Below, piece by piece: positions 23,203 through 36,015 of a stretch of DNA of 64,000 bases. The DNA is from Lyophyllum atratum (lineage: Eukaryota; Basidiomycota; Agaricomycetes; Agaricales; Lyophyllaceae), in the NCBI GenBank assembly GCA_014905825.1, contig JACGCN010000073.1:1-64000 (forward strand). The letters are read 5' to 3'. Both the position numbers and the translations under genes were made by a program. The stretch's first letter is position 1. Each line of letters begins with the position of its first letter. The notes under the pieces were generated by a model. It saw nothing but the letters and a program-made list of their open reading frames with translations, did no database searches and was not told the DNA's origin.

Positions 23203-26200
23203 TCAAACGATATCACGAAGGGTCATGGGGACTTCAGGCTGCAAAAGAGGACAATCAGCACATACGTTCGGTGTCGAAAAAAAGGACTCACGCATTTGAT
23301 CCTGAAGAAAGTATCCTGTCAGAAAACATCCGGTTCTAAAATAAGGACAACTAACTTGTAGAAACATTCTATAGATCGTAACATTTCGACGTCTCCGCCG
23401 GTAGCAGTCACGAAGTTTACAACAACACCCGCACGTGCATAGTTAGATGCAATCGCCGGCGCAACTCTGAAAACATTATTACTGAGTAGACATAGACCGA
23501 ATATGAATAGGCTAACCGGTGGGCATATTCTTCAACAGCTTTGGGTAGGTCTGCAGATAGGTTAGTCCATAATCTTATCATACGGTGCCAGAAGAACTAA
23601 CCATAATTAATGATAAGAGGGACGTGCGATACATCTGGAGTCTTCACTTGAACATCGTATACTACTAAGACTTTCGTGGCAGGTCTCATGATGAGCGAGT
23701 TGGGGTTCCTAAACTTGTTCAGGGCAGCCAACTTGGTTCCCGCATTCATATCACCATGCTATGAAAGACGGTGAGCAAAGGTTCTTACTAGACATGTGTG
23801 AATTCTTACCAGCGGCACAGCTTCTAAACCTCGACTTGCTAATTTATACACAACCGAATCCAAAGCAGTCATCCCACCGACGTGTACAATAGCGTGAGTG
23901 ACTTCAACGTCGTCAAAAAGATCGGCAAGGGCATCCAGCTTCCATTCTCTGGCTTGAGTTGTTTCGGCACTGGAGGCAGCACCTCTTCCAGAGCCGATGA
24001 TACCAAGCCCACCACCTGGTGCCGTAGCCATAGGATCCGCTCTGCCACCAGCTGTGAACGCCAAATATAAATAAAACTGGCGAAGACCTCGAGAGCCTTG
24101 GGTGGTATCTGCATGTGTAACATTCCCATCACGTCGGACCAGGACACGGACAGGCTCTCGCAGTTGAATCGCAGAAGCTAGGTTAAGGACGTCCTGAGGA
24201 ACAGTATTGGAGAAGAGGGCAGTTTGCCGCTCAATTGCCTGGGAGCCGGTTGTGTTTGGCTCTAATGGGGCAGGTGAAGATAAAGACAGAGCAGAAAATC
24301 TACGGCCCTGGTTTTGAAATGGGGAGACGATGCCGTTGCTCGGTTCCAAACTATTGTTAAAGGGTATCTGAGGTATCGGGCCAGGAGTTGAGCTGGAGTT
24401 CGGTGTCCCTGAGCCAATTGGTCGGGAGCGGGGTGGGGGAAGAAGCTTCACGATATTGAAAACAAATTCGTGGAGGTTGCGCGCGATGAGTTGGTCAACT
24501 TCGTCCAAGACGAGGAACCGTACTTCGGAACCGGAAAGTCCACCGGGGGAGGTAAAGAGGGCATGGAGCTTCTGCGGAGTGCCGCAGATGATATGGGGCA
24601 TGTTTTGTTGTAAGAGCCGGAGTTCTTGGGTAAGATCGTTATTAGCTGAGGTAGCACCTACACCCAGAGCGGATCTGACCCCAATGGGTCCCCCGAGGTC
24701 CCGGATCATGCGCTGTGCTTGAGTTGCTTGGTCTACGGTGGTGGAGATCATGATAACAATGGGGCCACGATTTGGGGGACGAACTGTGATGTTGGTGACA
24801 GCAATCTGGATGGCCGGTATGACATATGCAGCGATACGTTCTTGTGTCGGCGGTGCTTGAGCAATTATATCGGAGCCCCGCAGAAGGAATGGCAGCGCTC
24901 GTTGTTGGATCTTGTTCGGAGGGCCAACGCTAATGATGCTGATGAGATGACGAGAAGCATTGATTGACAGCATGCTCACCCAAATTTATTCAAAGACCGA
25001 AGAAGCTCAGGAGACAGTGATAGCTGTTCCCACTTGGAGATGATAGCGCCTGAATCTCGAGGCGAACTACTTGCCCAATTGTCGCCCTGTGCGTCCAGCA
25101 CCTGAAATAGTGTTAAGTCAAGGCTAAAATGATACCCAGATGTAAACATACACCGGATGAGTCCCGACGGAGTAGACCTGTGACTGAGCGACGTTTGTCC
25201 CGGAGGTTATTGTCTTGTCGGCCGATGTTGGGATCAGAGGGGCGAATTGGTAAATCGAGTGTTCCGGCAGACCAGGTACGCAAGGGAGGGTTTGAATGTC
25301 GAGCTGAAGACCTCATCTCAGGCCTGAGCGGTAATCCGTGACCAAGGATAGCTGGGTTGGATATCGTGGAAGGGGGTATCGTTTGATTAGGAGCGATGTC
25401 GCCATTGTGTGTATTTAAACCTGCCATGGAGTTGCTGCGTGTATCGTTATTTGTGGATTGTATATGCTGCGTCTGAATGGCGAGGAGTTGTCCGACTGAC
25501 GATGTTAAGGTATTCAAACGTTGAGAGATCGTGGATATGTCATCAGAGGGTGCTGGTTGATTGGGTGCGATGTTACCTAGTGAGGGTCTAGGACCGTTCT
25601 GTCTGGGACCACTGAGCGGAGGAGATGAGAAGCTGTGGCCATTGGCGTTTGCGGGAGCAAAGGGATCTTTGAACTCAGGCTGCGAGTTATTTCCCAAAGT
25701 TCGCTCCACGAGAAGGTTGACTTTGTGATGCATATCACCAAGGTCACGATGTATCTCTCGCGTAGTGTATTCGCATTGTACCAGGCGGTTTAGAATGTCG
25801 TGGATAATAGGCGAGGCTTTCAATTGAGCTTCGAAAGTTTGCGCTAGGTGATCCATGCTGGGATTGAACTGGCTACCGGAATCCAGAGAGGATACGGGGG
25901 ACAAAGATGTACGGCCACCGTAGGAGGGCGTGCCATTTTGGTTCACGGCTATGGGGGGCGTGGATATGGGTTCTCGACTTCTCTGTTGCAAGGTGAAGAA
26001 AGAGGACCCTGGGGTTTGCGTCCCAGTTGCTCCAGACGTTGGCCCTGGAGTCTCTACGTTGTCATCTCCTTCTGGTAACGTATCCAAGCTCCCGACCATG
26101 CTCGATTCCCTGACTGCTCTGCTTTCTATCCCGGGATGCGGCCTGCCTGCGTCGACTTGGCGAAAGGTAGGTGATTGTCGAGACCAGTCATTCGGCTCTT

Positions 26201-26438
26201 GCGACGGCCTGGGCCGGGAATCATCGTTGGCTGCTGGTGGACTAGGCGAAGATCTCGCAGAACGATATTCAGAAGGTGAGATGGAAAGCGAGGACATCGA
26301 GCTCCGGTCTTGCTCTCGGAATGTGTGATGGCGAAATCCCAATCCCAGTCCACTGCTGCCGCCTTCATCTTCTCCGCCACGTAATCCCCCAGGAAAGAAA
26401 GGCATGGAGGCAGGATTCAAGGCCGCACTCCTTGCCAT
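23203..26438 (-). CDS. degenerate eIF4A-like DEAD-box protein with long disordered N terminus
   Basis: One gene of roughly 950 residues. Exon 1 (to about 25130) is a Ser/Pro-rich N terminus of about 440 residues with a short helical island (DHLAQTFEAQLKASPIIHDI). An exon with WEQLSLSPELLRSLNKFG joins, across the 50-nt intron 24930-24979, to VGPPNKIQQRALPFLLRGSD, a normal DEAD-box Q-motif. Every ATPase motif after that is altered: AQAPPTQERIAA where eIF4A has a GTGKT loop, TPQKL for TPGR, DEVD for DEAD, FSNT for SAT, YDVQVKTPDV for the TDLLARGID block, HRVAPAIASNYARAG for HRIGRGGRFGRKG. HGDM and LIINYDLP are kept. About 130 residues rich in Ser/Pro/Gly are inserted between motifs II and III. 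The last exon ends PMTLRDIV (TGA at 23203). ATP hydrolysis is unlikely; a role in RNA or translation-factor binding is inference. Confidence 0.8.
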
Positions 26439-26844: not shown

Positions 26845-27892
26845 CTAAAGCTCTATGACGATCTTGCGGAGGAAACTCCTCTGTGGGTTCAACACGGATC
26901 GGGCTGCGAGAATGTTTGAGGATGGGAAATTGAAGGTCATGGAATTTACACACTTGAATCCCAACTTGAGTTTGAACTGGTTGAGTAGCCCTTTCTTTAG
27001 ATTTCCTTTCTTTTGTTTGATCCTAGCTTGGAGAGGATCAGACACGACAAAACGGAAGAGAATTATGGAGGACTTACTCCGAACGATGTCCTGAACCTCA
27101 GGAAGGTTTGCAGGTGTGCTGGTTACCTAAAGAAAAGCCAAGGTTAACAACTGATGAAAGCACACTGATCGTCGCGCCACCAGCCCATACGTACCACGAT
27201 CTCAAGACCATCAACCCTCGCCCCATTGAGGCGAAGTGCAAGCTTGGCAGCTTCCAGATTATGAAACTCAATGCTGGCATACTGTCGGTCACGAGAAGTC
27301 AATAAACTCGCAGGGACAGGTACACCAATGGTCACAGCCTGGCCACGGCTACAACGAATTCCGATGCGGCAGATGCTGCCGCAGGGGGCGAACATAGCTC
27401 GCAATCTCTCCTCCGTGATAGACGATTGCAGCTATTACTCATGGTTAGCGATGGATTATCTTGTCATGAATGAGGCACTCACATTGCCCACATATACAAA
27501 AGGCAAGGTATGCTGGACCTTGACCTGGGGGCGGCCTTTGTCTGCATTGGTTTTCATCGCGACCTTCTTCTTCGCCTCTTGAACCGCGTGGAGTTTATCC
27601 TCTCTTTTATGCTGATGAATAGCACCGCGTTTACGCTGAACAGGGGCATTGACTTTCGCACGAACATCAGAGCCTCGCCTGCCTCCTTGAGAAACTTGTG
27701 CAGGACCAGCTGCAACCTGTTGACAATTAGTACAGAGGTGATTAGATGATCATGGTAGCAAACATTAATCTTGTCAGGCGATTGATTCCAGGAAACACGC
27801 ATCACGGAAGAGGCTTGAGGGAGAAGGGTCGGAAAGGATCTTGAGGAGTCGATGGTGCAGCTACGAAGAGCATGCCACTTAAATAGCTGCAT
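26845..27892 (-). CDS. RRM protein with presequence-like N terminus
   Basis: RNA-binding protein with one recognisable RRM. The reading frame has no ATG upstream of 27892, so it starts MQLFKWHALRSCTIDSSRS, basic and almost free of acidic residues, like a mitochondrial presequence. An intron at about 27720-27771 leads to VAAGPAQVSQGGRRGSDVR and a Lys-rich linker. The RRM follows: RNP2-like LPFVYVGN, then LRAMFAPCGSICRIGIRC, and RNP1-like YASIEFHNLEAAKLAL with GARVDGLEIVV. The C-terminal exon is very basic (ARIKQKKGNLKKGLLNQFKLK), and in the chosen frame it ends RKIVIEL at 26845; that last exon boundary is uncertain. It is divergent from FMC1 (235 bp). Function beyond RNA binding is unknown; mitochondrial location is inferred. 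Confidence 0.65.
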
Positions 27893-28554: not shown

Positions 28555-29214
28555 AGGGAACTAGGATTCCCCGTGCTGAGTATCCACAATACATATTTAT
28601 TCACTCTAATATCTCGCTATGCTTCTCTTGTTTCCACAGATTTCCTACCTTTACAGCTCAACTATACTATTTGACGTGTGGCTTGATCATGTCCTGCGTC
28701 GGGAAGTCCATTGTCCATCGTTATCATCTACCCGCCTTCTACCTAAGACTGAGGTAATGAAGCTCAGCTCGACCGCTCGGCCCTAGAACAAGAGAACATT
28801 GCGCATTGGGCCATGCCTTGCTGGCCCATCTCGATTATCAATGACTTCATTGAACGTCAAATATCCAGATTGGGTTTATGTCTACGTTTTCTACATTTGA
28901 TGCGTTCCGCCAACCGCTGGCGCAACGCGTTAACCTAGAAGTCGAATCCTCCGTCCGCGTCATAGCCCGACGACATGCTGATGGTCTTTGAGACTCTACC
29001 GTTTTCGGGGCGAGGATTTTTTGAGTGGTGCTTGCAGCTCTACTTTCGTCATGTGATTGGGACGCGGACGCGTATTGCGCAAATTGGATGGGGAAGGCTG
29101 CATGAATGGTGTGTAGATAGATTATGTAGCTAGTTAGCGTCCACGGCTTTGGGCGGCACTGGTGACCGCACACAATGGTTTCGCGACGCGTATTGTAAAC
29201 AGAGCACAACAAGG
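28555..29214. other. intergenic, 660 bp, no gene seen
   Basis: Between FMC1 and SUA5, same strand. One antisense open frame of 138 codons (28847-29263) overlaps the start of SUA5 and has no recognisable motif. I judge the stretch non-coding apart from the UTRs and SUA5 promoter. Confidence 0.45.
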
Positions 29215-30465
29215 ATGCTGTCCTTGTCAAATTTGTGGAGGATCGTGCACCGATCATACTCACAGTTCATGACTCCGGTATCGACACAGGTCCTCAAATG
29301 TGACCCTTCCTCCATCCACTTTCATCCCGGCTCAGACCAGCCAGAAATTACTTGCCCAGAAACCTTGGCTGCCTTGAAAAACGCGTCACACCACCTCGTC
29401 GATCTCGCGGAGCCTATCGCCTTTCCCACAGAGACGGTCTATGGGCTGGGTGCTATGGCGCTAAGCACTCCTGCTTCGAACCGGATATTCACCACCAAAG
29501 GTCGACCAGCAGACAACCCCTTGATCGTTCACGTCTCGTCGTTCAAGATGTTGAACACATTGCTTCCGGAGGGTTACGTCTTGTCAAGAGCTTATGAGGC
29601 CCTGATAAAGCACTTTTGGCCTGGCGCTTTGACTCTGTTGTTCCCGAGAGACGCTGCGATCGTCCCGACGCTCATTACAGCGGGCCAGCCGACGGTGGCC
29701 ATCAGGATGCCCTCACATCCGGTCGCCAGAGCCCTGATCGCTGTGGCCAACACTCCATTGGCAGCCCCGAGCGCCAATACGTCCGGAAAGCCCAGCCCAA
29801 CTCGAGCAGATCATGTCCTCCGAGACCTCAACGGCAAGATCAACATCATCCTTGACGGCGGCGCTTGCGCAGTTGGGCTAGAAAGCACGGTGGTCGATGG
29901 GCTACACGAAGACGGGAAGATTCGCGTCTTGCGCCCAGGAGGGATCACTGTGGAGGATATCGAACGCGTGTTGAGGGAGGAAATGCATGGATGCAGCCAC
30001 ATCCCGGATGTCCTGGTGCATCGCCGCGATTACATGGACGAAGCAATGGAACAGGCCCCAACGACCCCTGGCATGAAATATAGGCATTATTCACCCTCGG
30101 TTCCCTTGACTCTCCTGATGACATCGTCTCGCCCACCTGTGGGTGAAGCTTCCACCCCAGCCTCGTCGTTTTTGGAATCGCTCAGGGCGGACCGACCACT
30201 GAAAGTCGGTGTCTTGGCACCCACAGATTCTGCTTTGTGGGATATATTGCCCGTAGATGGCTTCCAATGGTCCCGCTATCTGCTGGGGCCGAAAGCGGAA
30301 CCATCTGTATTTGCCCACCGCCTATTCGATGGTTTGCTCACACTCGAACAGCAGGGTGTTGATCTCATGCTCATTGAGGAGATCAAGGAAGACCGAGAAG
30401 GCTTAGCTGTGATGAACCGTGTAAAAAAGGCAGCTGGGGATGTTCAATGGATCACTTTTGAGTAG
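29215..30465 (+). CDS. SUA5: threonylcarbamoyl-AMP synthase SUA5
   Basis: Makes threonylcarbamoyl-AMP from threonine, bicarbonate and ATP, the first step of t6A37 modification in ANN-decoding tRNAs. It is a single uninterrupted exon of 416 residues, unusual here where most genes have introns. The YrdC domain shows FPTETVYGLGAMAL, TTKGRPADNPLIVHV, AIRMPSHPVARALI and PLAAPSANTSGKPSPT; the Lys, Arg and Ser-x-Asn residues used for ligand binding are present. After GLESTVVDGL and VLRPGGIT, a linker with PGMKYRHYSP leads to the Sua5-specific C-terminal domain (KVGVLAPTDSALWDILP, VFAHRLFDGLLTLEQQGVDL). ATG 29215 gives a basic hydrophobic extension (MLSLSNLWRIVHRSYSQF); a second ATG at 29269 would give a shorter form. 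TAG at 30463. Confidence 0.95.
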   Translation: MLSLSNLWRIVHRSYSQFMTPVSTQVLKCDPSSIHFHPGSDQPEITCPETLAALKNASHHLVDLAEPIAFPTETVYGLGAMALSTPASNRIFTTKGRPADNPLIVHVSSFKMLNTLLPEGYVLSRAYEALIKHFWPGALTLLFPRDAAIVPTLITAGQPTVAIRMPSHPVARALIAVANTPLAAPSANTSGKPSPTRADHVLRDLNGKINIILDGGACAVGLESTVVDGLHEDGKIRVLRPGGITVEDIERVLREEMHGCSHIPDVLVHRRDYMDEAMEQAPTTPGMKYRHYSPSVPLTLLMTSSRPPVGEASTPASSFLESLRADRPLKVGVLAPTDSALWDILPVDGFQWSRYLLGPKAEPSVFAHRLFDGLLTLEQQGVDLMLIEEIKEDREGLAVMNRVKKAAGDVQWITFE

Positions 30466-31231: not shown

Positions 31232-32750
31232 ATGCAAATGAACCGTAAGTCTTAGAACATTTGACATAACAAAGTCTTAACCTACCCTCCAAGGCCCAAT
31301 GAAGCAAGAGGAATGCGACCCATCCCAGTATTCCCGACTCTATACAATGCCTACATCACCCTGCCCCTCGAAGCTCGAAGACTTCTCTTTCAGAGATTCG
31401 CCATTCTCAAAGGCTGCTTCTGGCCCCTATCCTCCACGCTTCGATTTTCATTCCTTATCATACGCAACAGGTAATGGGCAGGATGACTCTCCGCCTACTC
31501 CTGTGCTTTACCACCCAAATATCGACCTATCTACGATGCGCCTGGACCAACCTTCCCATTCTTCGACTATTTCTATGTTTACCTCTTCACCCCAAAAATC
31601 GCCGAACTCTCATGTTCCCCGCCCTCCAAATGCGTTCATGCTCTACCGCTCTGACTTTCTCAAACGAGGGGTCATACCATCTCATGTCGAACGCCGCCAA
31701 CAAAATCTCAGCCGCATTGCTGGCCAGTGCTGGAATCTCTTACCGCCGGAAGAGAAAGCGCAATGGCAAGATCGCGCTGCCCAAGTTTTGGCTGAGCACC
31801 AAAAGCGTAACCCTGACTATAAATTTACTCCGGCACCACGAGGTTCTCGTCGTCCTAAGGTCAAGGGTCGCTCAGACGGAGATGTTGATGCTGTCGATGG
31901 CGAGGAGAGGATCAGGCAGATTCGGGAAGAGTACACACGCATTGCCGGGCCTACCGCAAGTCCAGCACGACGTAGGCGCCCAAGAGCTCAAAACCGGAGC
32001 CGCGATTTGGACAAGGAACCGTCCAAAGATAGCCTTCCTCCTGATAATGACGGAAACTCACTCCCCTCCTCCGTTCCTCCGTCGCCATCGCCGTCATTGC
32101 CTTCTCCTAGGCCTGAGCCAAGGGCAGAGGCATCTTTACCACCATTCTTTCCCCAATATTCTTTTCCTCATGCCACTCCTCCACGACGCCCTTCCACTTC
32201 TCTCGGGTTCTCCACTGCCAACGCGCTGCAAGAGAATGCATCTCTGCGGACAGGATACAATGTAGTTCGCCCTTCATCCGCGGCCTCGGAGACTGGCCTG
32301 ACTAGCTACCTGAAAGGACTAGACATTGTGAGTAACATCCCAGATATGGCACTCACGGCCAAACCTGATGTATCATTGCAGACGCCAATAGCTCCTACAT
32401 TCGGTTACGTTTCCTCATGCCCTTCACCAGCGTCATCGATGCAGGCGTTCCATGCCAGTCCCGAGCTCGACACTCACTTCACCTTCCCCACCTTGGATTC
32501 CTATCCTATGACTTCCTATCCTACCATCGAATATGACCGTGAAAGCTCGGCTCGCAACAGCGACTCTTTCCTGGGATCACTGTACTCCTGCGAGCCCTTC
32601 ACCTTCAATGACCCGCCCCTGCTCCCTCAGGAGGACTATTCGCTCATGGGTGACGCCTACCTCTTTAACAACTTCGATCTCTCCACTTTCCAAGGAAGGT
32701 GGGATCTTGATATGTCTCTGCCAGACGTCACGAAGTCCTACACTTTGTAG
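31232..32750 (+). CDS. HMG-box (MATA_HMG-type) transcription factor
   Basis: Sequence-specific HMG-box regulator, expected in the nucleus. I place the start at 31232: a 13-nt exon (MQMN plus one base), a 49-nt intron 31245-31293 with GTAAGT and AAG ends, then RPMKQEECDPS in frame. If the intron is not used, ATG 31299 gives a protein six residues shorter. The box covers about residues 110-185 (HVPRPPNAFMLYRSDFLK, HVERRQQNLSRIAGQCWNLL, AQWQDRAAQVLAEHQKRNPD, YKFTP), typical of the fungal MATA_HMG group that includes mating and fruiting regulators. Flanks are Ser/Pro-rich, with Arg-rich ARRRRPRAQNRSRD after the box. The C terminus is acidic-aromatic and ends LPDVTKSYTL. It is not at a mating locus as far as the neighbours show. 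Confidence 0.88.
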
Positions 32751-33524: not shown

Positions 33525-33921
33525 CGTGAAAGGAGTGAGTAAGACCCTCGACAACAAAAGGAGTTATGATATTGAGTTCCAGGCTGATAATTGAACTTGA
33601 AGTAGGGCCTCGGGGTCGGGGACCGCGGTACGTCCGATAGGGCGGATTCTGAGGCAGTCGACCACTCGCATGCTACGAAGATAGGCTTAGTACATCGCGT
33701 GGTTATTCGTCAGAGTCCAAGCGCCTTCAACTTGTCTTCAACCAACCTTCGACCTGAACCTTGCGACGCCGCGGGGCAAATTCGGATTTCTATCGCTATT
33801 TGTGCATGTTTGTACCGAAAGCCTATGTCCACTTGTCGCTGACATAACCCACGTGCATAGTGACGCCGGCGGCGATCGCAAATTTTCTGAAATTGCAGCG
33901 CTTAGTGTGACTGCTCTATCT
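33525..33921. other. divergent intergenic, two promoters
   Basis: About 400 bases between the DUF302 and DBP8 starts. It carries both promoters. No other feature recognised. Confidence 0.4.
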
Positions 33922-36015
33922 ATGGATGCTGGGACCAAGCGCGTATCTTGCAGCGCAGATGACCTTTCTAGAAAGCTAGAAGGACCCCGCAGGAAAAAGG
34001 CGCGATTGTCCTTAGCGACGGATCCAGATTCCGACGATGCACTGACTGGCAGGGGGTTAGCGAGCGGTACGGATAGTGGGGACGTGGACACAAGCGATGA
34101 AGAACGTAGTACAGAAGATGGGCAGGAGGGTGAAGAAGATGGCGAAGATGCAGAGGAGGAGGGAGACGAAGATGACAGCGACGAAACAGAACCACGACCG
34201 CAGGAGGACCTGGTGGTCCAGGATCGTTTTGGTTCCCTCTTCGAGAGCAAGAAGCGGCTACCGTCCAGACCTTCTTCGCCGCCTATACAACAAAAAGAAG
34301 TGTCCTTTTTCTCCCTGGGTATATCCCCACCACTTCAGGCAGCCCTTTCCTCCATGTCGATCTGGAATCCAACTGGAGTGCAAGCAGCTTGTATACCCCC
34401 ACTACTCTCCGGTAATGTTCAAGCCGCTTTGTTGAAGAAGCTTACACTTACGTATATCAAAACCTCAAGGCAGAGACTGTATCGGTAACGCGAAGACGGG
34501 CTCAGGCAAAACCATTGCTTTTGCACTCCCAATTCTCCAGAAACTCTCGGTCGATCCCTACGGGATTTTCGCACTGGTGCTAACGCCAACGAGGCTCGTG
34601 AGGCTTTTTCTGAACTCCAGTGAATATTTGCCAACAGTTGCCTTGTCTACAGGGAATTGGCATTCCAAATATCTGAACAATTCGCGGTCCTAGGGCCGTC
34701 GCTCAACATCCGTACCGCTGTGGTGGTCGGAGGCATGGATATGATGGCTCAGGCGCTTGAACTCAGGAATCGGCCACACGTCGTCATTGCCACACCGGGC
34801 AGAATCGTGGACCACCTGCGAAGTAGTCCTGGTGAATGGGACTTATCAAGAGTCAAATTCTTGGTATGTCTGGGAACTTTGCATCTAGGGATGTGACCAC
34901 AGTGCTCATGACACCGGCAGGTTCTAGATGAGGCTGATCGCCTTCTGACGGAGACGTTTGCCTCGGAATTGGGCTACTTGTTTGGGGCCCTTCCTCAGGA
35001 TCGGCAGACATGCCTGTTTACAGCGACGCTAACACCCTCGATCGAGGCACTAGCGAGCGCTCAACCGCGACCGGGCAAGCAGAAGCCATTTGTCCATAGA
35101 ATGACCGAAAAGTATGTGCGACGCCGTATTTCATGTGGTCTAATGACGTTGACACTTTGGCAGCATCGAAACGGTATCCACCCTCCAACAATATTATCTC
35201 CTCGTTCCATCCCACGTTCGAGAGACTTACCTCTATCATCTACTTTGCAACCCACCCGACTCCATCGTACACTTGCGCCGCGCTCCCCCAGAGCCCGTGA
35301 AAGGGTCGCGGAAACCGAAACCAAAAGGCCGACAAAAGGAGAAGAGACGCTCTGCGAACGACGAAGACGAAGAACCCGAGCAACCACCGCCTACCATCAT
35401 TTTCTGCACAAGACCTCGTACAGCCGCGTATCTGACGAACTTCTTGAAGTCGTTATCAATACGAAGCACGGCGTTGCATTCTCGCTTGACACAACGGGAA
35501 CGGCTGTCTTCTCTGTCGCTCTTCCGAGCTTCTGTTGTTCCGGTGCTGATATCAACGGATGTAGGAGCGCGAGGACTTGATATCGAAGAAGTAGCCATGG
35601 TCATCAACTGGGACATGCCCAATGAGCCCGAGGAGTACACGCATCGGGTAGGTAGAACGGCGCGTGCAGGGCGAGGAGGCGTGGCGGTCAGCTTCGTGAC
35701 GGAACGTGACGAGGAGAGAGTACTGAAGATTGAAGAACGCATCAGTAAGTGTGCTTGGCGTTCTGGTGATGCCTAACTAATGGAATTGCTAGGCACGAAG
35801 CTAGCTGAGATGACTCTTCCAGAGGGTAAAGTGCTGGAGAAGCTGAACAAGGTGTCGACGGCCAAACGGCTCGCGAAAATGGTAGGTTGCAACTATTCTT
35901 GCAGGGACTACTGCTGACGGTATCGCTGCAGGAACTTCACGACTCTGACTTTGGAAAGCGGGAGGAAATCCACAACATCAAACAAGCGAAGCGAGATCAT
36001 GATCGGGGGCAGTAG
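33922..36015 (+). CDS. DBP8: ATP-dependent RNA helicase DBP8 (DDX49)
   Basis: Nucleolar DEAD-box helicase for small-subunit rRNA processing. The first in-frame ATG is 33922 ([14 protein letters not shown]). An acidic N terminus precedes the Q-motif region [25 protein letters not shown]. After an intron the core motifs follow in order: NAKTGSGKT (I), LTPTR split from [10 protein letters not shown] by an intron, [13 protein letters not shown] (Ib), [10 protein letters not shown] (II), [13 protein letters not shown] (III), [14 protein letters not shown] (IV), [16 protein letters not shown] (V) and [15 protein letters not shown] (VI). The C terminus is basic ([14 protein letters not shown]) and ends KRDHDRGQ with TAG at 36013. 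An unusual Lys-rich then acidic insert (about 35265-35390) sits just before motif IV. All catalytic residues are present, in contrast to the pseudo-helicase at 23203-26438. Confidence 0.93.

Follow-up and report, generated by a model that had tools for sequence, protein, structure and literature searches.

An eIF4A-like pseudo-DEAD-box gene in Lyophyllum atratum and its mushroom relatives

The locus and its gene model

The window, a stretch of 64,000 nucleotides from Lyophyllum atratum (contig JACGCN010000073.1), carries an eIF4A-like pseudo-DEAD-box gene at 23203..26438, as given in the preliminary description, on the minus strand. The spliced model runs from an ATG at 26438 to a TGA ending at 23203 and encodes a 958-residue protein in eight exons without an internal stop, bearing out the long open frame that had been read across several introns. 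All seven introns are GT-AG and 50-54 nt long. The 10-nt exon 7 yields a C-terminal FYKIKCPEVPM, the consensus of the relatives (Table 1).

Table 1. Coordinates of the pseudo-helicase gene and its features in the window
Feature	Position	Strand	Basis or comment
Whole gene, eIF4A-like pseudo-DEAD-box, 958 aa, 8 exons	23203..26438	-	No internal stops; other mushrooms have full-length relatives of about this size
Exon 1, residues 1-429, mostly disordered N terminus	25152..26438	-	Spliced model; AlphaFold2 of relative P0002
PAM2-like LNPASMPFFP, residues 7-16	26391..26420	-	Relaxed pattern in 113/124 relatives of at least 850 aa (matches listed)
Predicted long helix, residues 198-248	25695..25847	-	Conservation 0.70
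Predicted helix, residues 300-327	25458..25541	-	Conservation 0.82
Basic/Ser blocks RTWSAGxLDLP and KRRSVxGLxRRDS, residues ~384-429	25152..25289	-	Conservation 0.84 and 0.83
Exon 2, start of RecA domain 1, R464 (= eIF4A1 R45 position)	24980..25101	-	Model, alignment
Exon 3, with the Q motif, a DEVD motif II, replacements at motifs I, Ia, Ib, III and IV, the two inserts and the first part of RecA domain 2	23810..24929	-	
P-loop, AQSGTGKT (eIF4A) to APPTQERI, residues 495-502	24833..24856	-	Identical in 251/251 complete rows (matches listed)
Exon 4, HGDM, replaced motif V, IINYDLP	23602..23758	-	Model, alignment
Exon 5, replaced motif VI begins	23517..23550	-	Spliced model
Exon 6, remainder of replaced motif VI (HRVAPAIASNYARAG)	23356..23466	-	Model, alignment
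Exon 7, micro-exon of 10 nt	23292..23301	-	Frame requires it
Exon 8, C terminus PMTLRDIV and stop	23203..23238	-	Spliced model

An RRM gene (Pfam RRM_1; 26850-27750, minus strand) lies just upstream, and in models from Arthromyces, Amanita and Steccherinum (P0013, P0227 and P0246) an RRM protein is fused ahead of the pseudo-helicase. Because of these fusions, the two genes may have remained neighbours across orders. The plus strand holds a Sua5-type threonylcarbamoyl-AMP synthase in a single open frame (29134-30465), an HMG-box protein, perhaps a transcription factor (31281-32750), and, about 7 kb away, a separate DEAD-box gene (33691-35776) whose ordinary later motifs provide a contrast within the same window.

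Contig C64 carries a second copy of the gene (locus L024), which matches the first at 99.4% identity over 6 kb and has an open frame and intact splice dinucleotides. The copies differ by four synonymous changes and by three non-synonymous ones at residues 265, 448 and 698, all outside the helicase motifs, and at 4 of 359 intron sites. Their pN/pS of 0.25 (3 versus 4 changes; Fisher p 0.07) is weak evidence when taken alone. Given this identity and the many other loci that look paired, we infer that the two are alleles, the second copy probably being the other haplotype.

Replaced helicase motifs and their spread among relatives

Pfam assigns both DEAD (58.2 bits) and Helicase_C (34.5 bits) to the window protein above cut-off, and its two RecA domains belong to the DEAD-box fold superfamily, a membership that denotes homology, not activity. 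The best solved relative by sequence is human eIF4A-I (E 8.3e-43), then eIF4AIII, and a profile of the relatives ranks solved structures in the same order. These searches, with an identity of 31-36% to eIF4A and FAL1 (versus 26-27% to DHH1 or PRP5), uphold the lengthwise alignment with eIF4A that had originally been made by eye. For three relatives, NCBIfam returns bacterial helicase models only, all far below their cut-offs.

The preliminary description held that every ATPase motif was lost. This stands for motifs I, III, V and VI and fails for motif II, which is still D-E-x-D, and for the Q-motif, which keeps its IQ. The replacements it read at motifs I (APPTQERI), Ib (TPQKL) and III (FSNT) are all present, motif V has no ARGxD, and the arginine fingers are gone from motif VI. 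Compared with eIF4A, motif Ia changes from APTRELAQQ to STTVDQATQ, Ib from GTPGR to GTPQK, II from DEAD to DEVD (Asp-Glu and the last Asp retained), III from SAT to the SNT of FSNT, IV from VIFINTRRK to IVHVGGMTA, and VI from HRIGRGGRFGR to HRVAPAIASNYAR. The Q-motif is partly retained (FGVGPPNKIQQ): W453 aligns with eIF4A's upstream aromatic residue, and 4 of 9 active-invariant residues are kept; such residues number 3/7 in motif Ia, 1/4 in GG, 1/9 in IV and 5/12 in V. Four active eIF4A/FAL1 sequences share 232 invariant columns, 93 of which the window protein retains, and 74 of 365 aligned columns are invariant within the active and pseudo sets each, yet different between them. Since the P-loop and arginine fingers are gone, ATP hydrolysis is very unlikely, and the pseudo-helicase would be unable to hydrolyse ATP or unwind RNA.

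Three protein searches, each represented by its best 120 hits (of 372, 398 and 246), list 252 different proteins as relatives (120 + 106 + 26); candidates are selected on words in common, a procedure that may miss more divergent relatives, and the set is not a census. The named relatives among the matches listed run from Lyophyllum to Rhizoctonia, with genera such as Auricularia, Exidia, Rhizoctonia, Sphaerobolus and Ramaria, and many rows are fragments. We take all organism-named relatives in the list to be Agaricomycetes; the lineage is confirmed for L. atratum and Rhizoctonia solani.

Among the matches listed, the P-loop reads APPTQERI in every complete row (251), DEVD and FSNT stand at motifs II and III in 252/252, and STTVDQA stands at motif Ia in 249/251. 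Motif Ib is GTPQKL in 243 of the 252 and GTPHKL in the other 9, TP[QH]KL thus being common to all; IQQRA occurs in 245 of 246 complete rows, with VQ in one. Motifs V and VI show small variations, HRVAPA at motif VI being found in 124 of 170 complete rows and other variants in the remainder. GxGKT/S, DEAD and HRxGR are absent from all 252 listed relatives; a SAT.P string occurs elsewhere in three rows, the motif III position being FSNT in every row. The motif losses that the preliminary description proposed to look for in orthologs are shared by these 252 proteins, which reach beyond close kin and include no relative with intact motifs among the matches listed.

A decaying gene or a wrong gene model might be suspected because one gene has lost several catalytic motifs and has a 10-nt exon, but identical replacements in the 252 listed relatives, the intact frame and splice sites of the second copy, and the like length of other species' full-length models make this reading barely credible. 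Decay and artefact were rejected on the intact spliced model, the open second copy and the replacements shared among the relatives listed. The selected non-catalytic role that had first been proposed instead of decay is strongly supported by the shared replacements and the open second copy, and the pseudo-helicase very probably has such a role.

A tree of six active helicases and 16 pseudo sequences, which has no outside root, places the pseudo sequences on a stem of ~1.75 substitutions per site (support 100) with inner branches of at most ~0.2, a shape that implies much change, then little. DHH1 and PRP5, also long branches, join beside the pseudo clade, with a risk of long-branch attraction; the tree supports one pseudo clade with a long stem, not its exact sister. 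The catalytic replacement may have arisen once, before the split of the Agaricomycete orders represented.

Conservation in the 124 relatives of at least 850 aa among the matches listed, measured as the frequency of each column's most common residue and averaged over the region, is 0.90 in RecA1, 0.91 in residues 701-757 and 0.86 in RecA2; it is 0.43 in the first insert and 0.44 in residues 61-180. Few parts of the protein vary as little as the old ATP cleft, which suggests that this cleft has a new job, such as domain locking or partner binding. An ATP-independent RNA binder, in which the RecA domains would grip RNA or poly(A) with no need of a nucleotide cycle, is consistent with the conservation of domain 1, with TP[QH]KL at motif Ib in all listed relatives and with the retained IQ of the Q-motif; this reading is improbable, and the alteration of the RNA-contact motifs Ia, GG, IV and V counts against it. 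Weak nucleotide binding is possible because motif II survives, as does part of the Q-motif, and the constancy of IQ (245/246 complete rows) and DEVD (252/252) among the matches listed could fit a regulated binder that holds nucleotide without hydrolysis and signals to partners. Such a binder is quite improbable, the P-loop Gly, Lys and Thr being replaced in all 251 complete rows listed. In P-loop NTPases, phosphate and Mg binding is unlikely without these residues.

Predicted fold, N terminus and partner surfaces

AlphaFold2 models of the full protein are poor (mean pLDDT 48.4) and those of the core reach a mean pLDDT of 63.6, both from a shallow alignment; the two RecA domains are present in the predicted structure. 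Sequence and model together indicate a retained helicase fold from which the catalytic motifs are gone, retention of a role being argued from conservation only. The Ser/Pro insert noticed earlier after motif II is real (residues 638-700) and poorly conserved (0.43). A second, Gly-rich insert, GLGIIGSGRG (residues ~774-788), lies between the RecA domains and has a conservation of 0.85.

The N terminus of ~440 residues had been described as disordered, which agrees with its mostly low pLDDT and overlooks conserved blocks (residues 7-16, 198-248, 252-262, 300-327, 384-400 and 413-429), two of them predicted to be helical. In relative P0002, pLDDT is mostly below 50 except in or near the two helices: a long one at 200-210 and 212-250 (P0002 numbering; block-mean pLDDT 68-91) and a weak one at 302-329 (47-59). 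Among the 124 long relatives listed, RTWSxG is found in 118 and RR[DE]S in 122.

The first of these blocks resembles a PAM2 motif. PAM2 is defined by a hydrophobic residue (Leu) at position 3, Asn/Ser at 4, Phe at 10 and Pro at 12, with an invariant Ala at position 7 (PMC2854688), and a second source calls a side chain bulkier than Ala at position 7 highly unfavourable (PMC7356810). The mushroom motif, LNPxSxPFFP, has Leu 3, Asn 4, Pro 5, Phe 10 and Pro 12; of the 94 complete motif rows among the matches listed, 93 have Ser at position 7 and one has Cys. The strict pattern with Ala 7 occurs at the N-terminal motif place in none of the 252 relatives listed, its sole match being at residue 286 of P0051, elsewhere than the PAM2-like motif. 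The 11 of 124 long relatives without the relaxed pattern comprise six models that start inside it, one with LDPTSTPFFP and four without that part. Shuffling of residues 1-440 produces the relaxed pattern in 21 of 20000 trials, for a pattern that was defined after seeing the sequence. In P0013, P0227 and P0246, with an RRM in front, the motif lies at 291, 265 and 255, where the pseudo-helicase part starts.

The PAM2-like motif suggests docking on poly(A)-binding protein (PABP), a reading against which Ser at position 7 counts. The genome holds two kinds of PABP-like locus, each at two places (L025-L028), where MLLE matches adjoin PABP-like RRM frames. These loci have a canonical GKITGMLLE, showing no compensating change in the MLLE signature, the part of the pocket compared. 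An eIF4E-binding motif (YxxxxL-hydrophobic) was considered as well and rejected, being absent from the window protein and present in 6 of the 124 long relatives listed.

The eIF4G-contact surface of eIF4A bears on a second candidate partner. Human eIF4A1 contacts eIF4G through R45, D265, E268, D296 and T298, and D296K or E268R significantly lowers eIF4G binding, as reported in PMC7470955. Among the 16 pseudo sequences, R45 is retained in kind in 15, D265 in 16 and E268 as Asp/Glu in 16; in all 16, D296 is changed to Gly and T298 to Glu/Asp, which counts against eIF4G binding. The genome contains 10 MIF4G matches. It also has two eIF4A genes with intact motifs (L007 and L018, 84.6% identical in aligned columns) and a FAL1-like gene.

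A rival reading is a conserved pseudo-helicase whose partner lies outside translation, in a nuclear or decay complex with CWC22, NOT1 or a similar MIF4G protein, much as for eIF4AIII or DDX6, and whose N-terminal motif binds a different target from PABP. FAL1/eIF4AIII is about as near in sequence as eIF4A, D296 and T298 are changed while D265 and E268 are retained in kind, PAM2 position 7 deviates, eight further MIF4G matches exist in the genome beyond the top pair, and the top VIA-align rows include DDX6, tied with many others. This alternative is unlikely, although not strongly so: eIF4A-I ranks first in the sequence searches, and a partner outside translation leaves the PAM2-like motif unexplained.

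A candidate adaptor and its known counterparts

The whole mechanism tentatively preferred here is a non-catalytic mRNP adaptor that bridges PABP and an eIF4G/MIF4G-type partner. Its N-terminal PAM2-like motif would dock on the MLLE domain of cytoplasmic PABP, and the RecA2 face, with part of the eIF4G-contact surface of eIF4A retained, would hold a MIF4G-type protein, either eIF4G or a relative. The rebuilt cleft, perhaps with the Gly-rich inter-domain insert, might fix the domain arrangement or bind a new ligand. The outcome would be a bridge from poly(A)-bound PABP to a translation scaffold, or an occupant of the eIF4A seat on that scaffold. A decoy or scaffold acting on eIF4A partners is possible. 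A more specific and rather unlikely version is an ATP-independent "dead eIF4A" which would be seated on poly(A)-bound PABP and replace eIF4A on eIF4G or a MIF4G relative, forming an eIF4F-like complex without unwinding, its ATP site rebuilt as a fixed binding site.

Many of the listed relatives carry database names such as RNA helicase, eIF4A, FAL1 or translation initiation factor, and mushroom annotation thus includes a likely non-helicase among the helicases. An entire fungal class seems to retain a catalytically dead eIF4A relative with its ATP site fixed anew. Knowing the partners of the protein would show how an eIF4A scaffold serves in the absence of ATP, and would put to the test a role of PABP-bound pseudo-helicases in regulating translation or the fate of mRNA. 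By titles and the starts of abstracts, no description of a mushroom pseudo-eIF4A family was found in the open-licence literature. DEAD-box pseudohelicases as such are already known, Utp25 being one; the mushroom protein stands apart by its eIF4A-group origin, its PAM2-like tail and its fixation across the Agaricomycetes sampled.

The closest counterparts, eIF4A-I and eIF4AIII (FAL1), share two RecA domains, 31-36% identity, and the stretches IQQRA, WKLDxLxDL, HGDM and INYDLP with the pseudo-helicase. Unlike them, it has the P-loop and motifs Ia, III, IV, V and VI replaced, and adds two inserts and a ~440-residue N terminus with the PAM2-like motif. Utp25/Def is a DEAD-box pseudohelicase of the SSU processome that likewise combines a DEAD-box fold with vestigial motifs and a disordered N terminus and is evolutionarily kept; Utp25 itself is without a DEAD sequence and belongs to ribosome assembly (PMC9539457). 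By that description, the mushroom protein differs in belonging to the eIF4A group, in keeping DExD and in its PAM2-like motif. The MLLE-binding PAM2 proteins (Paip2, eRF3, Ataxin-2, LARP4B and Ustilago Upa1) have the same LNPxxxxFxP core close to the N terminus and within a disordered stretch; compared with them, the mushroom motif has Ser 7 for Ala and mostly Pro 9 for the preferred Glu.
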